From: Streptomyces humicola
GTDB lineage: Bacteria > Actinomycetota > Actinomycetes > Streptomycetales > Streptomycetaceae
NCBI RefSeq assembly: GCF_024436035.1
Contig: NZ_JANFNG010000014.1
Coordinates: forward strand, 1-64,000
Reading direction: 5' to 3'
Length of the DNA stretch: 64,000 bases
Position numbers and translations under genes: made by a program. Below are positions 35,649 through 49,304 of this stretch, one piece after another. How positions within the stretch are numbered: position 1 is the first letter of the stretch; each line of letters opens with the position of its first letter. Under the pieces are notes generated by a model that was not told the DNA's origin, did not search any database, and saw only the letters and a list, made by a program, of their open reading frames with translations.

Positions 35649-36554
35649 TCAGCCCCGCCCGTACCGGTCCTCCGCCTGCCAGCACGCCACCAGGCCGACC
35701 GCGAGCGACACCACCGCCCAGCCCGCCGACATCGCCCAGATGTGCGGCGTGAGCTTCCCGTAGCCGGCGAGCAGCGCATGCCGGGCCAGCTCGATGTAGA
35801 GCGCGCCCGGGTTGGCCTCCATCACCATCCGGACGGCGGCCGGGGCGTGCCCGGTGACCTTGGCGATGCTGTAGAAGACGCCGCAGGTGTACATCCAGGT
35901 ACGCAGCACGAACGGCATCAGCTCGCCGATGTCGTGGTTGCGCGCACCGATGCGCGCCATCAGCATCCCGACGCCGAGGTTGAAGACCGTCTGCAGCACG
36001 AGCGCGGGAAGCAGCAGCAGCCAGCGGCTGGTGACGGGTTCGCCGGTCGCCAGACAGATGGCCACCACGACGCCCATCGACAGGGCGAGCTGCTGGAGTT
36101 GGACGAGCGTGGTGGCGATCGGCAGACAGGCGCGCGGGAAATGGAACGCCCGGATCAGCTCCAGGCGGTTGCAGATCGACCAGGTGCCGGCGGCGATCGA
36201 CTCTCGCGAGTAGGTGAAGACGAACATGCCGACGCAGAGGAAGGCGATGTAGTTGTCGCCCGTGCCGTCCGTCTTCTTCAGCAGATATCCCCAGACGAAC
36301 CAGTACACGGCGACATTGAGCAGCGGGGTCAGCACATGCCAGATCTGGCCGAGGGTCGCCGTCGCGTAGTACGAGGTGAGGCGGGCGCGGGCATAGGAGA
36401 GCGTGAAGTGGCGCCGCTGCCACAGCTGTCCGACGTACGCTGGCAGGCTGGGCCGCTGCACGGACGGCTTCAGGCCGTGCCGGGCGGCGAGGCGGGCGGC
36501 CTCGGAGGAGTTCAACTTCCCCGACTCTGCAGAAACTTCGGTGATCAGCGTCAC
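35649..36554 (-). CDS. ABC-2 type polysaccharide/teichoic acid export permease
   Basis: The 301-residue TagG/RfbA-type permease has six membrane helices and the motifs SYYATATLGQIWHVLTPLLN and YLLKKTDGTGDNYIAFLCVG, with an ESIAAGTWSICNRLELIRAF loop. Such permeases need a separate ATPase (TagH type) to push polymer chains across the membrane; no ATPase gene lies beside it or elsewhere in the polymer locus here. GTG 36554 overlaps the upstream stop as GTGA, tying it to the sialyltransferase-like gene. Confidence 0.87.
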   Translation of the reverse strand: MTLITEVSAESGKLNSSEAARLAARHGLKPSVQRPSLPAYVGQLWQRRHFTLSYARARLTSYYATATLGQIWHVLTPLLNVAVYWFVWGYLLKKTDGTGDNYIAFLCVGMFVFTYSRESIAAGTWSICNRLELIRAFHFPRACLPIATTLVQLQQLALSMGVVVAICLATGEPVTSRWLLLLPALVLQTVFNLGVGMLMARIGARNHDIGELMPFVLRTWMYTCGVFYSIAKVTGHAPAAVRMVMEANPGALYIELARHALLAGYGKLTPHIWAMSAGWAVVSLAVGLVACWQAEDRYGRG

Positions 36555-37612
36555 GGGGCGACCGCCGGGGCGAGGGGGTTGTGGACGGCGCCTATGCCGT
36601 GGCGGGCACGGGCGGCCTGGGTGATGCCGGTCAGGAACCCCTCGGCGCGTGGTGAGGCACCGCTGGTCAGCCAGGAGGGGTCGATGTCGCACACGGCGAC
36701 CTCGACGCCCGTACCGGCGAGCGCGAGCGGCAGCGTGTGGACAACGGTGGAGGGGAAGCTGAGCAGCCGGGAGCCGATCGGGCCGCGGCGTGCGACGAGT
36801 TCGAGCGGCAGGTCCGGACGGACGATCTCCAGACCCGCCTGCGTCGCAAGGCGCCGCAGCTTCTCCTCCCGCTCCCTTCGGTGCGCGAAGTAGCGCGTCG
36901 CGCCCTGGGCGCGGGCGATCGCGGTGACGGCGGCGAGGTAGCGGTCGAGGTCGACGACGCCGGTCTCCACGAGCGAGGTGCCGATGATATCGGCGCCCGC
37001 CCTGACGGCCGGCGGGCCGTAACGGGACCTGGTCCACTCCAGACGGTTGGCACGCAGTTGCGTGCCGGGCGGCGCCGTCACCGGCATGGAACTGAACAGC
37101 TCCACGCGGCGGCGCGCCCCAGGCGTGAGCCTGCGCCGGGCGGAGGCGGCGACCACGCCGAAGGCGACGTCACGCACCCCGCGCCCGCTGCGGTGCCAGC
37201 GCACCAGACGCTGCCTGCCGGCGAGCAGGGCGACGAACTCCATCGTCGCCGTGCCGTCGTCGATCACCACGAGGTCACGCGCACGGCCGATCAGCAGCAG
37301 CGCCTGCACGAAGCGCGAGAAGGGGTCGCCCAGCACCAGCCGCCGGGCGCGCAGCAGCGCGGGCGTGAGGCGCGCAAGGGTGCGCAGCGGCCCGGCCGTC
37401 GCGGTGCGCGGCTCGCACCAGCGCAGGGTGAGCCCCTCGTCACGCGCCAGCCCGGCCATCCGGCGCAGCTGGCCGCGGCTCATCGGGTCACGCGGCGGCA
37501 GCACGACGACGGTGCAGTCGGGGTCGTCGCCGGCCTGACGTTCCGTATGCACCCACTCCAGCAGGTTGAGCAGCTGGACCGGCGATTCGACGAGGGCGAG
37601 AGTCCCCGTCAC
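36551..37612 (-). CDS. Sialyltransferase/polysialyltransferase-like protein
   Basis: The 353-residue protein has the three motif regions of bacterial sialyltransferases, read by eye: DDGTATMEF (D/E-D-G motif), FAHRREREEK where an H-P motif is expected, and FPSTVVHTLPLAL (Ser/Thr motif). The second motif has Arg in place of Pro. It would transfer a CMP-activated nonulosonic acid in the cytoplasm. GGGAGG precedes GTG 37612. The start of its gene lies 133 bp after the neuB gene, and it overlaps the permease gene by 4 nt. Confidence 0.72.
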   Translation of the reverse strand: MTGTLALVESPVQLLNLLEWVHTERQAGDDPDCTVVVLPPRDPMSRGQLRRMAGLARDEGLTLRWCEPRTATAGPLRTLARLTPALLRARRLVLGDPFSRFVQALLLIGRARDLVVIDDGTATMEFVALLAGRQRLVRWHRSGRGVRDVAFGVVAASARRRLTPGARRRVELFSSMPVTAPPGTQLRANRLEWTRSRYGPPAVRAGADIIGTSLVETGVVDLDRYLAAVTAIARAQGATRYFAHRREREEKLRRLATQAGLEIVRPDLPLELVARRGPIGSRLLSFPSTVVHTLPLALAGTGVEVAVCDIDPSWLTSGASPRAEGFLTGITQAARARHGIGAVHNPLAPAVAP

Positions 37613-37745
37613 TGTGCCTCCCGGTGAGCCCCGCCACGCCGGCGGCTACTGGCAACATCAGTGGCTCCGCCCCGGGCACTGCCGCCCGATCGGCGAAGGT
37701 TGACGCGGTCGTACAAGTGCGGCCCGGCAGCCTCGCGTGCGTCGC

Positions 37746-38669
37746 TCACGCCAAAGCCGCCGCTTCCGCATCGCCGACCACCCCGCGTACGCGGCGCAGC
37801 TTGCGCATCGGGCCGAGCTCGCCCTCGTACACCCGCTTCACCCCGTCCCCGAGCGACCGCTCGACGATCCTGATGTCACGCACCAGGCGCTGCAGGCCCG
37901 GTGTCTCGACGGAGGCGGCCTGGTCCGAGCCCCACATGGCGCGGTCGAGGGTGATGTGCCGCTCGACGAAGCAGGCGCCGAGCGCGACGGCGGCGAGGGT
38001 GGTCTGCAGCCCGACCTCATGGCCCGAGTAGCCGATCGGCACGTTGGGGTACTCGGCCTGCAGGGTGTGGATCATCCGCAGGTTGAGCTCTTCGTGCTTG
38101 GCCGGGTACGTCGACGTGGCGTGGCAGAGCACGATGTTCTCGCTGCCGAGTACCTCGACCGCGTGACGGATCTGCTTCGGGGTGGACATGCCCGTCGACA
38201 GTATGACGGTGCGGCCGGTGGCGCGCAGGGCGCGCAGCAGCTCGTCGTCGGTGAGGCAGGCGGAGGCCACCTTGTGTGCGGGCAGGTCGAACTGCTCGAG
38301 GAACTCGACGCTCGGCACGTCCCACGGGGAGGCGAACCAGTCGATGCCGCGCTTGCGGCAGTACGCGTCGATGGAGCGGTACTCCTCCTCGCCGAACTCG
38401 ACGCGGTGCCGGTAGTCGATGTACGACATCCGGCCCCACGGGGTGTCACGTTCCAGCTCCCACTGGTCGCGCGGGGTGCAGATCTCCGGCGTGCGCTTCT
38501 GGAACTTCACCGCGTCGCACCCTGCGTCCGCGGCGGCGTCGATGAGGCGGTAAGCGTTCTCGAGATCGCCGTTGTGGTTGATGCCGATCTCGCCGGTGAC
38601 GTAGACGGGGCGGCCGGCGCCGACGAGGCGGTCACCGATCGTGCGGCAACGGTGGGGGGTGACGGTCAC
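37746..38669 (-). CDS. neuB: NeuB-type nonulosonic acid synthase
   Basis: It condenses PEP with a hexose or N-acylhexosamine to give a nine-carbon sialic-acid-like sugar. The 307-residue protein carries EIGINHNGD (27-35), the lysines in VKFQKRTPEICTP, FASPWD, KVASACLT and IGYSGHE. Typical NeuB proteins are about 340-350 residues with a C-terminal SAF (antifreeze-like) domain; here the chain ends soon after the barrel, so the SAF domain is missing. GTG 38669 overlaps the cytidylyltransferase stop as GTGA. From memory, S. coelicolor makes a Kdn-containing wall polymer from a comparable locus. Confidence 0.9.
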   Translation of the reverse strand: MTVTPHRCRTIGDRLVGAGRPVYVTGEIGINHNGDLENAYRLIDAAADAGCDAVKFQKRTPEICTPRDQWELERDTPWGRMSYIDYRHRVEFGEEEYRSIDAYCRKRGIDWFASPWDVPSVEFLEQFDLPAHKVASACLTDDELLRALRATGRTVILSTGMSTPKQIRHAVEVLGSENIVLCHATSTYPAKHEELNLRMIHTLQAEYPNVPIGYSGHEVGLQTTLAAVALGACFVERHITLDRAMWGSDQAASVETPGLQRLVRDIRIVERSLGDGVKRVYEGELGPMRKLRRVRGVVGDAEAAALA

Positions 38670-39412
38670 GGCAGGGTCCTTTCGAAGCGTTCACATCGTT
38701 CAAGGGGTGTGTAGGTGTCGAGCAGGGGAGCCAGCGCCCGCGCGCGGCTCAGGTCGTCCGGCTCGTCGATCTCCAGCACCCGTGCGGGATCGGTCCGTAC
38801 GAGCGCGGTGCGGCCGAAGAAGCGGTGGCCCACGGCGCGGAAGCCGTCGGCTCGCATCGCATAGGCGGCCCCGGTCTCCAGCAGGTCCTCGGGGCGGTCC
38901 TGGCGCCGGGGGCGGCAGGTCACGTCGTGGTTGACGCCGACGGGAACCGCGGGTCCGACGGAGTCCCCGTCACGCCACAGGAAGCCGTGGAACGGCGCCA
39001 CGGTCAGCGCCGAGTCGGCGCCGTCCTCGACGACGGCGGCGGCGACACCACTGACGTCCTCCGCGGTGAGGAACGGGCTGGTGCACTGGACGAGCAGGAC
39101 GGCATCGACGCGCCCGCCGTGCAACGCCTCGTAGGCGTCCATGGCGTGCAGCACGGCGGCTTCACTGCTCGCGGTGTCGCCCGCGAGCTCGGCCGGGCGG
39201 GGCAGCGGATCGGCCCCGGCGGCGCGGGCAGCCTCGGCGATCGCCGCGTCGTCGGTGGAGACGACCACATCGGTGACGAGCCGTGCGGTGCGGCAGGCGC
39301 GCACGGCGCGCGCGACGAGCGGCACGCCGCCGACGGACGCGAGGTTCTTCCCCGGCACGCCCTTGGATCCCCCGCGCGCCGGTACGACCGCAAGAACCAC
39401 CACGTCGCTCAC
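38666..39412 (-). CDS. neuA: CMP-nonulosonate (acylneuraminate) cytidylyltransferase
   Basis: It activates the NeuB product with CTP. The 248-residue protein shows the family start VPARGGSKGVPGKNL, DVVVSTDDAAIAEAA, LVQCTSPF and the late motif VLEIDEPDDLSRA. GTG 39412 is the start, with GGAGG 5 nt upstream. This start overlaps the stop of mini-ORF B as GTGA, and the first codons (VSD) match those of both mini-ORFs. The gene symbol is by family resemblance; the true substrate may be Kdn or a related sugar rather than N-acetylneuraminate. Confidence 0.87.
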   Translation of the reverse strand: MSDVVVLAVVPARGGSKGVPGKNLASVGGVPLVARAVRACRTARLVTDVVVSTDDAAIAEAARAAGADPLPRPAELAGDTASSEAAVLHAMDAYEALHGGRVDAVLLVQCTSPFLTAEDVSGVAAAVVEDGADSALTVAPFHGFLWRDGDSVGPAVPVGVNHDVTCRPRRQDRPEDLLETGAAYAMRADGFRAVGHRFFGRTALVRTDPARVLEIDEPDDLSRARALAPLLDTYTPLERCERFERTLP

Positions 39413-39504
39413 AGCGCCTCCTTCGTGAGCTTCTCCGCCCGCAAGGCGAGAAGTGCGGGCATCGTCGCCGCCCGCAGCCCGGCGGCCTCGCACGCGTCGC
39501 TCAC
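39409..39504 (-). CDS. 31-residue mini-ORF, copy B
   Basis: GTG 39504 overlaps the stop of copy A, and its own stop overlaps the neuA-like start as GTGA. The peptide begins VSDACEAAGLRAATMPAL and ends AEKLTKEAL. It differs from copy A only at residues 18, 19 and 21 (Leu-Leu-Ala-Leu against Pro-Phe-Ala-Glu at 18-21). The AAGGAGG near its 3' end is the ribosome site of the following gene, so its translation would be coupled. Whether the peptide has a function is unknown. Confidence 0.5.
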   Translation of the reverse strand: MSDACEAAGLRAATMPALLALRAEKLTKEAL

Positions 39505-39596
39505 AGCGCCTCCTTCGTGAGCTTCTCCGCCCGCTCGGCGAAAGGAGCGGGCATCGTCGCCGCCCGCAGCCCGGCGGCCTCGCACGCGTCGCTCAC
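39501..39596 (-). CDS. 31-residue mini-ORF, copy A
   Basis: GTG 39596 overlaps the stop of the DUF6716-like glycosyltransferase gene (39593-39595). The peptide shares its first 17 residues and its last 10 with copy B and has Pro-Phe-Ala-Glu at 18-21. AAGGAGG in its last codons forms the ribosome site for copy B. Both copies are helix-prone and charged. It could be a real small protein, a translational coupler, or a by-product of duplication of the neuA ribosome site and first codons. Confidence 0.5.
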   Translation of the reverse strand: MSDACEAAGLRAATMPAPFAERAEKLTKEAL

Positions 39597-40918
39597 AGGT
39601 CCCCCATCCGTCTGATGACCGGCGCGATCCGTTGCACGCCGTGGCGGTAGGCCGCGCGGGCCGTATCGCGCAGCGCGGCGCGCGCGGCGCGCTCCGCCCG
39701 GCCCGGCTCCCGCACCCGGTGCGGGCCGGAGCCCGGGCCGGCCGGTTCGCCCTTGGCGTCGAGGTGGTGGCGGCCCAGGATTCCGGGGAGGTAGCCGGTG
39801 GCGGTGCGCGGCGTGTAGTACGGCGTCAGCGGCGGGAGCCGGTCCGCTGACGCCAGTTCGGTGACACGTTCCCGTGTCGCGCGGAACGGATCGGGAACTG
39901 CCACTCCGTGGTCGCGCAGCCAGTCGGCGTCGGCGCGCGGCAGCGTCCCCTCGTCGAGCATGTCCCACGAGGCGAGGCAGCCGGAGCCGAGGAAGTGGTG
40001 GTTGCCGAGCGGTTCGCGGACGCCGAGGTCGGTGAGGACGGCGGTGGGTATCGAGCGGTGCATCGCTTCGATCGCGGCCGTGGAGCTGACGGTGACGAGC
40101 AGGTCGGTGCGGTCGAGCACCTCGCCCATGTGGCCGTAGACCAGGCTCAGGTTCGGCGGCAGACCGCCGGGCCGCCGCCGCGCCAGCCGGGTGTACGGGA
40201 ACTCCTCGATGTGCGTGGTGTGTTCTCCGAGCTTGCTGCGCAGCTTGACCAGCACCTGCCGATCGCTGTGGCGTTCGGCGTGCAGGGCGGCGCGCTCCAG
40301 TAGGTAGGTGCGGTCGGCGCGGCTGTCCGGGACCGACGGCTGGGCAGCGAAGGTCACGGTGAACGGTCGTCCGCACGCCGGGTCGTACGGTTCGTAGGGC
40401 GCGCCGTCGAGGAACGGCAGCGCGCTTTCCACGACGCTCGACGGGTCGGCGCCCACACCGGCGTAGGTGTGACGGAAACGCTGCGCGTCGTGGCGGCTGT
40501 TGGCGAGGACGACGTCCGCGCCGTGCCGCAGCAGCAACCCGTCGGCGAGCTTCTCGTAGACCACGCCGACGTACCCGGTGACGACCACGGGCCTGCGTTC
40601 GAGGCCGCGCCAGGCGCGGGCGAGCCCGTGCAGCATCGCCTGGACGGTGCCGCCCACGCACGCGAGGATCACCACGTCGCACGTCCCGCGGTCGGCCTCG
40701 CGCAGGAACTCCTCCGCCGTGATCTCGCGCAGCGAGTCGGCGGCGATGCCGAGTTCGGCCAGCTGGCGGGGGGTTGGGGTGGCGCGGCCGCGCAGCAGAC
40801 GGGCGTCGAGGCGCGCGTCGGCAGCGATCCTGCGGCCCGTGAGCGCACCCCATTTCCACCGTGTGTCCGAATCGGCGAGAACGGTAATGCGACTTACCGG
40901 TGTGGCACTTGTTGGCAC
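39593..40918 (-). CDS. DUF6716-type putative glycosyltransferase
   Basis: The 441-residue protein has a GT-B-like pattern: RITVLADSDTRWKWGALTG, VILACVGGTVQAMLHGLARA, VVVTGYVGVVYEKLADGLLL and LLVTVSSTAAIEAMHRSIPT. The last resembles the Ser/Thr motif of CDP-glycerol and polysialyl transferases. I recall such proteins near NeuB genes in Streptomyces under the DUF6716 name. GTG 40918 is chosen; a -10-like TACGGT lies 7 nt upstream, so the mRNA may be leaderless. It heads the left-running operon through the mini-ORFs, neuA, neuB and beyond. Confidence 0.78.
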   Translation of the reverse strand: MPTSATPVSRITVLADSDTRWKWGALTGRRIAADARLDARLLRGRATPTPRQLAELGIAADSLREITAEEFLREADRGTCDVVILACVGGTVQAMLHGLARAWRGLERRPVVVTGYVGVVYEKLADGLLLRHGADVVLANSRHDAQRFRHTYAGVGADPSSVVESALPFLDGAPYEPYDPACGRPFTVTFAAQPSVPDSRADRTYLLERAALHAERHSDRQVLVKLRSKLGEHTTHIEEFPYTRLARRRPGGLPPNLSLVYGHMGEVLDRTDLLVTVSSTAAIEAMHRSIPTAVLTDLGVREPLGNHHFLGSGCLASWDMLDEGTLPRADADWLRDHGVAVPDPFRATRERVTELASADRLPPLTPYYTPRTATGYLPGILGRHHLDAKGEPAGPGSGPHRVREPGRAERAARAALRDTARAAYRHGVQRIAPVIRRMGDL

Positions 40919-41094
40919 GCCGCAGACCGTAGGAATCGAATCGGAGCGGCGGCCCAACGATGCGGCAACAAATAGTTAACAGCGTGCCGACGGATGGGGT
41001 GGCGCGAATGCGTCACGCACCCGCCATGCGGCGTTCACCCGCCGGTACGCGTCCTGCCATCCCAAACGTCCGCGGCCCGCATAACGTTCCGCGG

Positions 41095-48401: not shown

Positions 48402-49304
48402 GTGAAATTCGCGCATCTGTCGGTCAACGGCGTCCATGGGTCAGTACGTTGTCAGGGCGTCCCCATCTCGCTGCGCTTCTCCCACCCGTTCCCGTCCTGC
48501 GCTTCCCCCGCCCGTTCCCACCCTGCGCTTCTCCCACCCGTTCCCGCCCTGCGTTTCCCCCGCCCGTTCCCGCCCTGCGTTTCCCCCGCCCGTTCCCGCC
48601 CTGCGTTCCGCGTCCCGCCGCCCTGTTCCGCCTCGCGGCATCACCCCAGGAGTCCGAAGCTGGCCAGAAAGCTTCCGGCCGCCTCGTCGCCGACGGCGGC
48701 GTCCCGGCCGAGACCGTCGCTTCCGCTGCCCGCGCAAAGCCGTGGCAGCGGGACCCACGCCCCCACTCGGGACGGCAGACCAGAGCCACTGAACCCAACG
48801 GACACTCAACCGGATATTCCGTACATCCGTGACGGCCTGAGCCATCTCAACTCCATTCCCCCCAAAACCGCCGAAGCCGCGCTGCTCACCTGCTACGGCA
48901 GCCTCCGCTGGGCGCGCAGGCTCGCCGCCCACCGCCCGTACCCGGACCTCGGCGCACTGCTCGCCGCCGCCGACGAGGCCGCGTACGACATGCGCCCCGC
49001 CGATCTCGCCGAAGCGCTCGCCAACGAGACCGCCCTCCCACACCTTCCGCCCACCACGCTTGTGGGCTCCGCCGCCCGCACCGCGCTGCACGCCGCCCAC
49101 GCCGCGTACGAGGCGCGTTTCGGCCACGTCTTCGTGATCTGCCTCGACCCCGAGCATCCTGGTGAGCACCTCGACCAGGTGCTCACCGGCATCCGCGCCC
49201 GGCTCGGCAACGAGCCCGACGAGGAGCGCGCGGTCGCCGCCGAGGAGCTGCGCGGGATCGCCCGCGCCCGGCTCGTCCGCCTGGTGCGCTCCGCCCGGCC
49301 CTGA
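48402..49304 (+). CDS. OHCU decarboxylase-domain protein (start unresolved)
   Basis: From about 48837 the frame encodes a clear 2-oxo-4-hydroxy-4-carboxy-5-ureidoimidazoline decarboxylase-like domain: LSHLNSIPPKTAEAALLTCY, SLRWARRLAAHRPYPDLGAL, AAHAAYEARFGHVFVICL and a helical C-terminus. The family converts OHCU to S-allantoin in uric acid breakdown, though this subgroup is not proven. No ATG, GTG or TTG occurs in frame between the domain and GTG 48402. That start would add some 145 residues, including Pro-rich sequence encoded by the minisatellite. Core confidence is high; the N-terminus is not. Confidence 0.65.
   Translation: MKFAHLSVNGVHGSVRCQGVPISLRFSHPFPSCASPARSHPALLPPVPALRFPRPFPPCVSPARSRPAFRVPPPCSASRHHPRSPKLARKLPAASSPTAASRPRPSLPLPAQSRGSGTHAPTRDGRPEPLNPTDTQPDIPYIRDGLSHLNSIPPKTAEAALLTCYGSLRWARRLAAHRPYPDLGALLAAADEAAYDMRPADLAEALANETALPHLPPTTLVGSAARTALHAAHAAYEARFGHVFVICLDPEHPGEHLDQVLTGIRARLGNEPDEERAVAAEELRGIARARLVRLVRSARP
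48487..48613. repeat. 26-bp minisatellite, five copies
   Basis: The unit CGTTCCCGCCCTGCGTTTCC plus CCCGCC starts at 48487, 48513, 48539, 48565 and 48591, exactly 26 bp apart, with few differences; the last copy is partial. A weaker unit precedes it near 48459. Because 26 is not a multiple of 3, each copy shifts the frame. It lies just upstream of, or inside the 5' part of, the decarboxylase gene. Confidence 0.9.

Follow-up and report, generated by a model that had tools for sequence, protein, structure and literature searches.

A dispersed repeat of Streptomycetaceae at stop/start overlaps between operon genes, resembling mycobacterial MIRUs and probably kept transparent by translational relay

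The window, by which we mean the whole stretch of 64,000 nucleotides at the start of contig NZ_JANFNG010000014.1 of Streptomyces humicola (assembly GCF_024436035.1), holds a nonulosonate operon in which two units, A and B, lie in tandem between the gene of a DUF6716 putative glycosyltransferase and that of a cytidylyltransferase (Table 1). Tandem Repeats Finder reported the interval 39403-39598 with a period of 92, 2.1 copies and 95% matches. An earlier note on this DNA had described a 92-bp tandem duplication with a 31-codon ORF in each unit, a chain running from the glycosyltransferase through mini-ORF A and mini-ORF B to the cytidylyltransferase, and an AAGGAGG ahead of each next start, and all of this was confirmed. 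The chain is joined by three GTGA overlaps, the GTG codons being at 39596-39594 for mini-ORF A, 39504-39502 for mini-ORF B and 39412-39410 for the cytidylyltransferase, and the genes and both units are on the minus strand, which refines the earlier description. The two units differ at five of 92 positions (51, 53, 55, 61 and 62); these change three residues, as had been stated, but they span 12 bp and not the roughly 20 bp that had been given.

A third, divergent copy, which was not a seed of the covariance model R1 described below, is located inside the same operon, where it separates the NeuB gene from the gene that follows; its mini-ORF again overlaps both neighbors. The cytidylyltransferase and NeuB genes meet in a GTGA overlap that has the form of an empty site. 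The NeuB junction that carries the third copy yielded no clean pair of empty and filled sites in relatives. Elsewhere in the window, at 48471-48609, the repeat finder reported a 26-bp tandem repeat of 5.4 copies.

Table 1. Genes, repeat units and associated features of the operon, in the order of transcription (R1, covariance model of the repeat)
Feature	Coordinates	Strand	Evidence or remark
DUF6716 putative glycosyltransferase, upstream gene	39593..40957	-	PF20471, E 8.8e-110
Unit A, 92 bp	39505..39596	-	R1 match 39506-39596, 88.7 bits (R1 seed); tandem repeat
Mini-ORF A, 31 codons + TGA	39501..39596	-	GTG overlaps glycosyltransferase stop; TGA overlaps mini-ORF B GTG
Conserved stem, 5' arm, unit A (approximate)	39577..39596	-	Consensus structure
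Conserved stem, 3' arm, unit A (approximate)	39517..39539	-	Consensus structure
AAGGAGG of unit A, Shine-Dalgarno-like	39509..39515	-	Precedes unit B GTG; read from sequence
Unit B, 92 bp	39413..39504	-	R1 match 39414-39504, 92.4 bits (R1 seed)
Mini-ORF B, 31 codons + TGA	39409..39504	-	TGA overlaps cytidylyltransferase GTG
AAGGAGG of unit B, Shine-Dalgarno-like	39417..39423	-	Precedes cytidylyltransferase GTG; read from sequence
Cytidylyltransferase, downstream gene	38666..39412	-	PF02348, E 4e-20
GTGA overlap, cytidylyltransferase stop/NeuB start	38666..38669	-	Form of an empty site; ORF ends, sequence
NeuB-family synthase	37746..38669	-	PF03102, E 5.5e-81
Third, divergent copy	37663..37749	-	R1 43.0 bits, E 3.1e-7 (whole genome), 4.8e-8 (other R1 search); non-seed
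Third-copy mini-ORF, 46 codons	37609..37749	-	GTG overlaps NeuB stop; TGA overlaps next-gene GTG (37612)
Gene downstream of third copy	36551..37612	-	No Pfam match at E<=0.01

When one unit served as the query of a plain DNA search, 26 places were found in the S. humicola genome at E<=0.001, units A and B included, and the copies inspected from this search lie mostly in short intergenic gaps. The covariance model R1 was built from an alignment of 20 full units, 11 from the same genome and nine from relatives, and in S. humicola it gave 37 matches at E<=0.1 and 26 at E<=0.001, the latter consisting of 11 seeds and 15 non-seeds. With 26 such matches the repeat is dispersed genome-wide and is not peculiar to the nonulosonate operon, the setting in which it had been noticed, and the idea of operon-specific mini-genes was dropped for this reason.

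At the same threshold R1 matched 47 of 150 Streptomycetaceae genomes, eight of which had supplied seeds, in nine of 17 genera. Tandem arrays are many across the family and contain up to five units. On two contigs of the S. humicola genome, C44 (at its start; locus L002) and C47 (at its end; L028), the assembly appears to be broken inside a tandem array, so that draft genomes may understate the size of arrays. A search across the class, run with filters at the cost of some weak matches, returned 14 of 246 genomes, eight of them Streptomycetaceae and six outside the family. The six outside matches (E 3e-4 to 9e-4) were rejected as coding-like by eye and without NTGA ends, which leaves no credible copy outside Streptomycetaceae, mycobacteria included, among these 246 genomes as searched with R1. 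Some matches of a DNA search of 41 genomes, among them L040, L042-L045, L049, L050, L052 and L053, look like short chance matches and were not used, and the count of 14 of 41 genomes from that search is not relied on because it includes probable chance matches. As for close relatives, where a complete lack of units would have told against the earlier note, the family proved to be broadly present, but at the exact glycosyltransferase-cytidylyltransferase junction R1 matched just two of 80 named relatives, Streptomyces sp. NBRC 110028 and S. himastatinicus; these 80 loci came from a glycosyltransferase search and belong to Streptomyces, Streptantibioticus, Actinacidiphila and one unassigned Streptomycetaceae strain. 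At this junction S. aculeolatus has a degenerate trace of the unit, read by eye, and genome G022 has variant units.

The ends of the element are conserved and its interior is variable, and in this it resembles a non-autonomous transposable element. Several variants were seen. Seven loci (L048, L072, L075, L076, L082, L199 and L330) carry an alternative 3' module, CAGTGACATCAGCCGC..GGCGCGGCG.., with variations, instead of the usual CGGAGAAGCGAAC end, which points to modular variants or to recombination between repeat types. Longer relatives at L077, L078, L260 and L056 have GTGAGCGACGCACGCGAG at the 5' end and GGGCGGAGAAGC at the 3' end in common, with another interior (..GGCCGAG..); possibly they are a second subfamily that is less tied to gene junctions. 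At five argC-argJ loci (L266, L324, L328, L332 and L316) a second palindrome of the GGGGGCACCTCCCAGCGGTAGCTGGGGGAG type, whole, in part or in a close form, is nested in or beside the element, and in the first four of these the measured insert length is still 2 mod 3.

To describe the position of the element we used 128 loci with 179 units, taken from the best-scoring listed matches and for that reason leaning to well-preserved copies, with gene neighbors called by a simple frame-composition script in place of a full gene finder. In 112 of the 128 loci the called genes on both sides run in the same direction as the element. Among the 114 loci that have a co-oriented upstream gene, the stop codon of that gene is the element's own TGA in 76 and lies elsewhere in 38. 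NCBIfam identified eight partial proteins encoded downstream of the element as the products of nuoC, purL, cysD, ribAB, argJ, nadC, cobM and lipB, which indicates that insertion affects operons whose core functions are unrelated to one another.

Orthologous junctions with and without the element were found in two cases. The nuoB and nuoC genes meet in a plain 4-bp GTGA overlap in one genome and are separated by three GTGA-bounded units in a congener (G041 and G013, the two genomes compared). For argC-argJ we compared 60 loci from two genera, 30 from each, since one of the 31 genomes in each search gave no locus; half of the 60 genomes have a plain overlap and half have an insert. R1 at E<=0.01 recognised 14 of the 30 inserts and none of the 30 empty loci. 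As judged by the sequences of filled and empty sites, the insertion target at argC-argJ and nuoB-nuoC, the two junctions tested, is the stop/start overlap itself.

The reading frame across the element was followed at the 74 loci in which the upstream stop is the element TGA and a downstream gene was called: 62 are unbroken relays, seven are in-frame fusions and five are broken. When one nucleotide was deleted in silico from the last loop of the same loci, the counts became 15 relays, two fusions and 57 broken, and a deletion of two nucleotides gave 20, 41 and 13, respectively. A wider set of 104 loci, which is the full 128 minus 18 without a 5' NTGA and six without a downstream gene, contains 84 relays, 11 fusions and nine broken chains. 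As a rough control, ordinary gaps of 20-300 nt held unbroken chains in 4 of 13 cases in the window, 5 of 15 at loci of the S. humicola genome and 15 of 74 at 20 of the 80 named loci; the first two sets contain element-bearing gaps, and the third contains the glycosyltransferase junction and has uneven frames (42, 11 and 21 gaps for 0, 1 and 2 mod 3). The glycosyltransferase-cytidylyltransferase junction failed as a frame control of its own. In 66 of 77 relatives the two genes are spaced by a length of 2 mod 3, since the NTG overlapping the glycosyltransferase stop is in one continuous frame with the cytidylyltransferase. This continuity, seen in the loci L088-L167, suggests either that there is an N-terminal extension of poor conservation or that the start is misplaced.

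Descent from ancestors of 89 and 92 bp, the two dominant unit lengths, which are both 2 mod 3, could account for much of the mod-3 signal in the dispersed set. This is the core of an alternate explanation in which the repeat is a purely non-coding MITE/REP-like element residing at NTGA sites, the frame being a by-product of these lengths and of the conserved ends, with no selection for a relay. A conserved imperfect palindrome with conserved ends and a variable interior is what such an element would have, and a test of compensation between head and tail of the units, which is a weak one and from which 43 of 179 units were dropped for want of an anchor or of a downstream NTGA, gave 71 of 89 correct totals against 62 expected, a modest excess over independent margins. 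Of the 32 arrays, 20 have a period of 2 mod 3 and 11 a period of 0 mod 3, which joins units in one frame.

The argC-argJ junction is the strongest test of frame retention in this analysis, and it speaks against the non-coding reading. The inserts come in 20 different lengths, the shortest 53 bp and the longest 245 bp, and 29 of the 30 have an unbroken ORF chain, the exception being L345. Of the single-unit lengths 18 of 19 are 2 mod 3, for which the binomial p is about 3e-8 under an assumption of independence that is only partly true. Sixteen of the 30 inserts are missed by R1 at E<=0.01, and 15 of these 16 keep the chain, so that frame retention belongs to the junction and not only to the element, and selection there would act on the coupling, whatever the insert. 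Long modified copies, of which the 137-bp one in the window is an example, also terminate precisely at the following start, and they are likewise difficult to reconcile with a frame that follows from two ancestral lengths. We therefore give the MITE/REP-like reading a low probability, although it is the strongest of the three alternatives that we weighed.

The earlier note had allowed that the mini-ORFs could encode real small proteins. In principle their sequence might matter, for example if the peptides were regulators acting with the operon, and it would agree with this that both units have an open frame with a start codon and a Shine-Dalgarno-like stretch, and that the frame is retained across loci. 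Against it, in the conserved 5' part of 146 units the variability is 0.67 bits at the first codon position, 0.97 at the second and 0.76 at the third, so that the second position is more variable than the third, which is not the pattern of a conserved protein, and the C-terminal half of the mini-ORFs is read in different frames in different copies. The mini-ORFs at argC-argJ range from 18 to 82 codons in length. Three mini-ORF peptides had no match in Pfam and five had none in NCBIfam. A conserved small protein was rejected on the codon-position variability and the absent Pfam and NCBIfam matches, and we consider peptides whose sequence matters to be very improbable.

The consensus structure contains an imperfect stem, which is rooted at the mini-ORF start codon and reaches as far as the bases just ahead of the Shine-Dalgarno-like stretch. 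In the seed alignment double changes occur in 5 of its 14 pairs, with 0 of 500 shuffles as high, and in an alignment of 129 distinct rows, which was fitted to the model, they occur in 10 of 14 pairs and 83 cells as compared with 15.2 cells in shuffles, again with 0 of 500 as high. G.U combinations fill 43 cells as opposed to eight for A.C, in addition to 68 other mismatches, and this G.U excess in the aligned units points to a structure of the sense strand, as RNA or single-stranded DNA. Eight single units folded no better than shuffles (z -1.2 to +0.7); it is at the level of the family that the stem is supported by the alignments.

A covarying stem with a wobble bias to the sense strand, placed directly before a Shine-Dalgarno-like stretch, also brings to mind a control element, such as an attenuator, a riboswitch-like RNA, an RNase site or a small promoter, that would tune expression downstream. 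Promoter activity has been reported for the senX3-regX3 region that bears mycobacterial MIRUs (PMC4213456), and the description of such units as transparent or silent may be too simple. However, the element precedes genes of unrelated pathways (argJ, nuoC, purL, cysD, ribAB, nadC, cobM and lipB) and is missing at the same junction in relatives, and eight single copies of it fold no better than shuffles. The sole Rfam match for eight loci at E<=1 was to a microRNA family with 26.3 bits against a gathering score of 105. A dedicated control element is accordingly a reading to which we attach hardly any weight.

The explanation that we favor, and hold to be likely, is that the units are copies of a non-autonomous repeat of Streptomycetaceae, dispersed and probably mobile, which resides at NTGA overlaps, is similar to MIRUs and is kept operon-transparent by translational relay. 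A typical copy starts at the overlap, with the TGA of the element ending the upstream gene and the NTG opening a mini-ORF of about 26-53 codons; the imperfect stem and a Shine-Dalgarno-like stretch follow, and where the downstream gene begins an NTGA is restored. Ribosomes that have finished the upstream gene would restart on the mini-ORF, translate it, terminate at the start codon of the following gene and initiate there once more, so that the operon would hardly be disturbed and tandem copies would add rungs. We infer that reinitiation is what selection sees, that copies which break the relay are lost, and that the element moves as DNA by means of some enzyme. It might also be speculated that the stem, rooted at the mini-ORF start, restricts entry to ribosomes arriving from upstream. 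The earlier note's proposal of a ladder that tunes the translation of downstream genes finds comparative support in the unbroken chains at 62 of 74 loci and in 29 of 30 argC-argJ inserts, but the small-protein half of its reading is not supported.

The filled and empty orthologous sites provide comparative evidence, drawn from genome sequences, for selection on the hand-over of ribosomes across an inserted mini-ORF, and their existence makes the relay testable. Nature has provided a relay series of one to five units, and of 18 to 82 codons at argC-argJ, which could gauge the reach of translational coupling. For annotation there is a warning, since mini-ORFs of this kind should not be taken for genes specific to one operon, nor dismissed as noise. 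The size of the arrays may differ from strain to strain, which could be of use in typing.

No Streptomyces counterpart of the element was reported in the openly licensed literature that we searched, and several known repeats invite comparison. Rickettsia palindromic elements (RPEs) are palindromic selfish repeats that are tolerated through retention of the reading frame, and they are found inside genes, where they extend the protein. The present element is likewise a palindromic repeat that keeps reading frames. In contrast to RPEs, it lies between genes and forms a separate mini-ORF in 62 of 74 loci, with an in-frame fusion in seven. REP/RAYT systems and IS200/IS605-type elements have an imperfect hairpin beside a tetranucleotide target and short dispersed copies, features that the Streptomycetaceae repeat shares, but the Y1 transposase (PF01797) is missing from nine of 12 carriers, the S. 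humicola genome included. Since this domain is present in 3 of 12 carriers and in 2 of 12 non-carriers, mobilisation by a Y1/RAYT enzyme is unsupported.

The closest parallel is with the MIRUs of mycobacteria. According to a 2025 review (PMC12548453), which cites Supply et al. 1997, MIRUs are apparently mobile, insert at start codons and carry an ORF coupled with a -4 spacing. At senX3-regX3 the units are 77 bp and 53 bp in length, and MIRUs at this place are confined to M. leprae and the M. tuberculosis complex, as stated in PMC4213456. In our own comparison the senX3-regX3 junction of one genome (G242), whose RegX3 is 99% identical to the mycobacterial query, holds a MIRU pair of 101 and 53 bp, and four other loci have plain ATGA overlaps. 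R1 with filters off gave the MIRU units of this locus (L348) 7.7 bits (E 1.9) for the 101-bp unit and 6.4 bits (E 4.2) for the 53-bp unit, matches that stand among 59 at E<=10 in five loci. Both fall on a shared stretch, GAGCGAAGCGATGAGG, that resembles the GAGAAGCGAACGAAGGAGG end of the Streptomycetaceae units, and local alignments to the MIRU units were no better than those of shuffles, as fractions of 0.60 and 0.72 of 200 shuffles scored as high. Homology was set aside, as weak R1 matches and alignments at the level of shuffles show no relation to the MIRU pair of the one MIRU-bearing genome compared; as the comparison covered a single genome, a very distant kinship is possible.

The two kinds of element differ in the bacterial family that harbors them, and a covarying stem rooted at the start codon is carried by the Streptomycetaceae units, to which the stem analysis applies. 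Their likeness is one of organization. Both are short intergenic repeats that occur in tandem, MIRUs doing so at senX3-regX3. Both have a small ORF with 4-bp overlaps at either end, one with the stop of the preceding gene and one with the start of the following gene, which for the Streptomycetaceae repeat is the relay seen in 62 of 74 loci. The unit lengths are 2 mod 3 here as they are in MIRUs (77 and 53 bp in PMC4213456; 101 and 53 bp in G242). Dispersed and tandem copies are oriented with the genes (112 of 128 loci and 32 arrays in Streptomycetaceae), and insertion is at a stop/start overlap whose empty form is NTGA, as in one nuoB-nuoC junction and in 30 of 60 argC-argJ junctions. By analogy the element would work like a MIRU, and it cannot be filed as a MIRU by sequence. 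A bolder version, which we offer tentatively and rate below even, is that two actinobacterial families have independently evolved sequence-unrelated mobile repeats that enter operons at 4-bp stop/start overlaps and become nearly invisible there as ribosome relays, in Streptomycetaceae even at core junctions (argC-argJ, nuoB-nuoC, and before purL and cysD); that the relay frame at argC-argJ is under purifying selection even in inserts that can no longer be recognised; and that a stem rooted where the mini-ORF starts ties the relay to translation of the gene upstream. On the reading that we favor, the MIRU principle, known from mycobacteria, would extend to a second large family with no significant sequence similarity.
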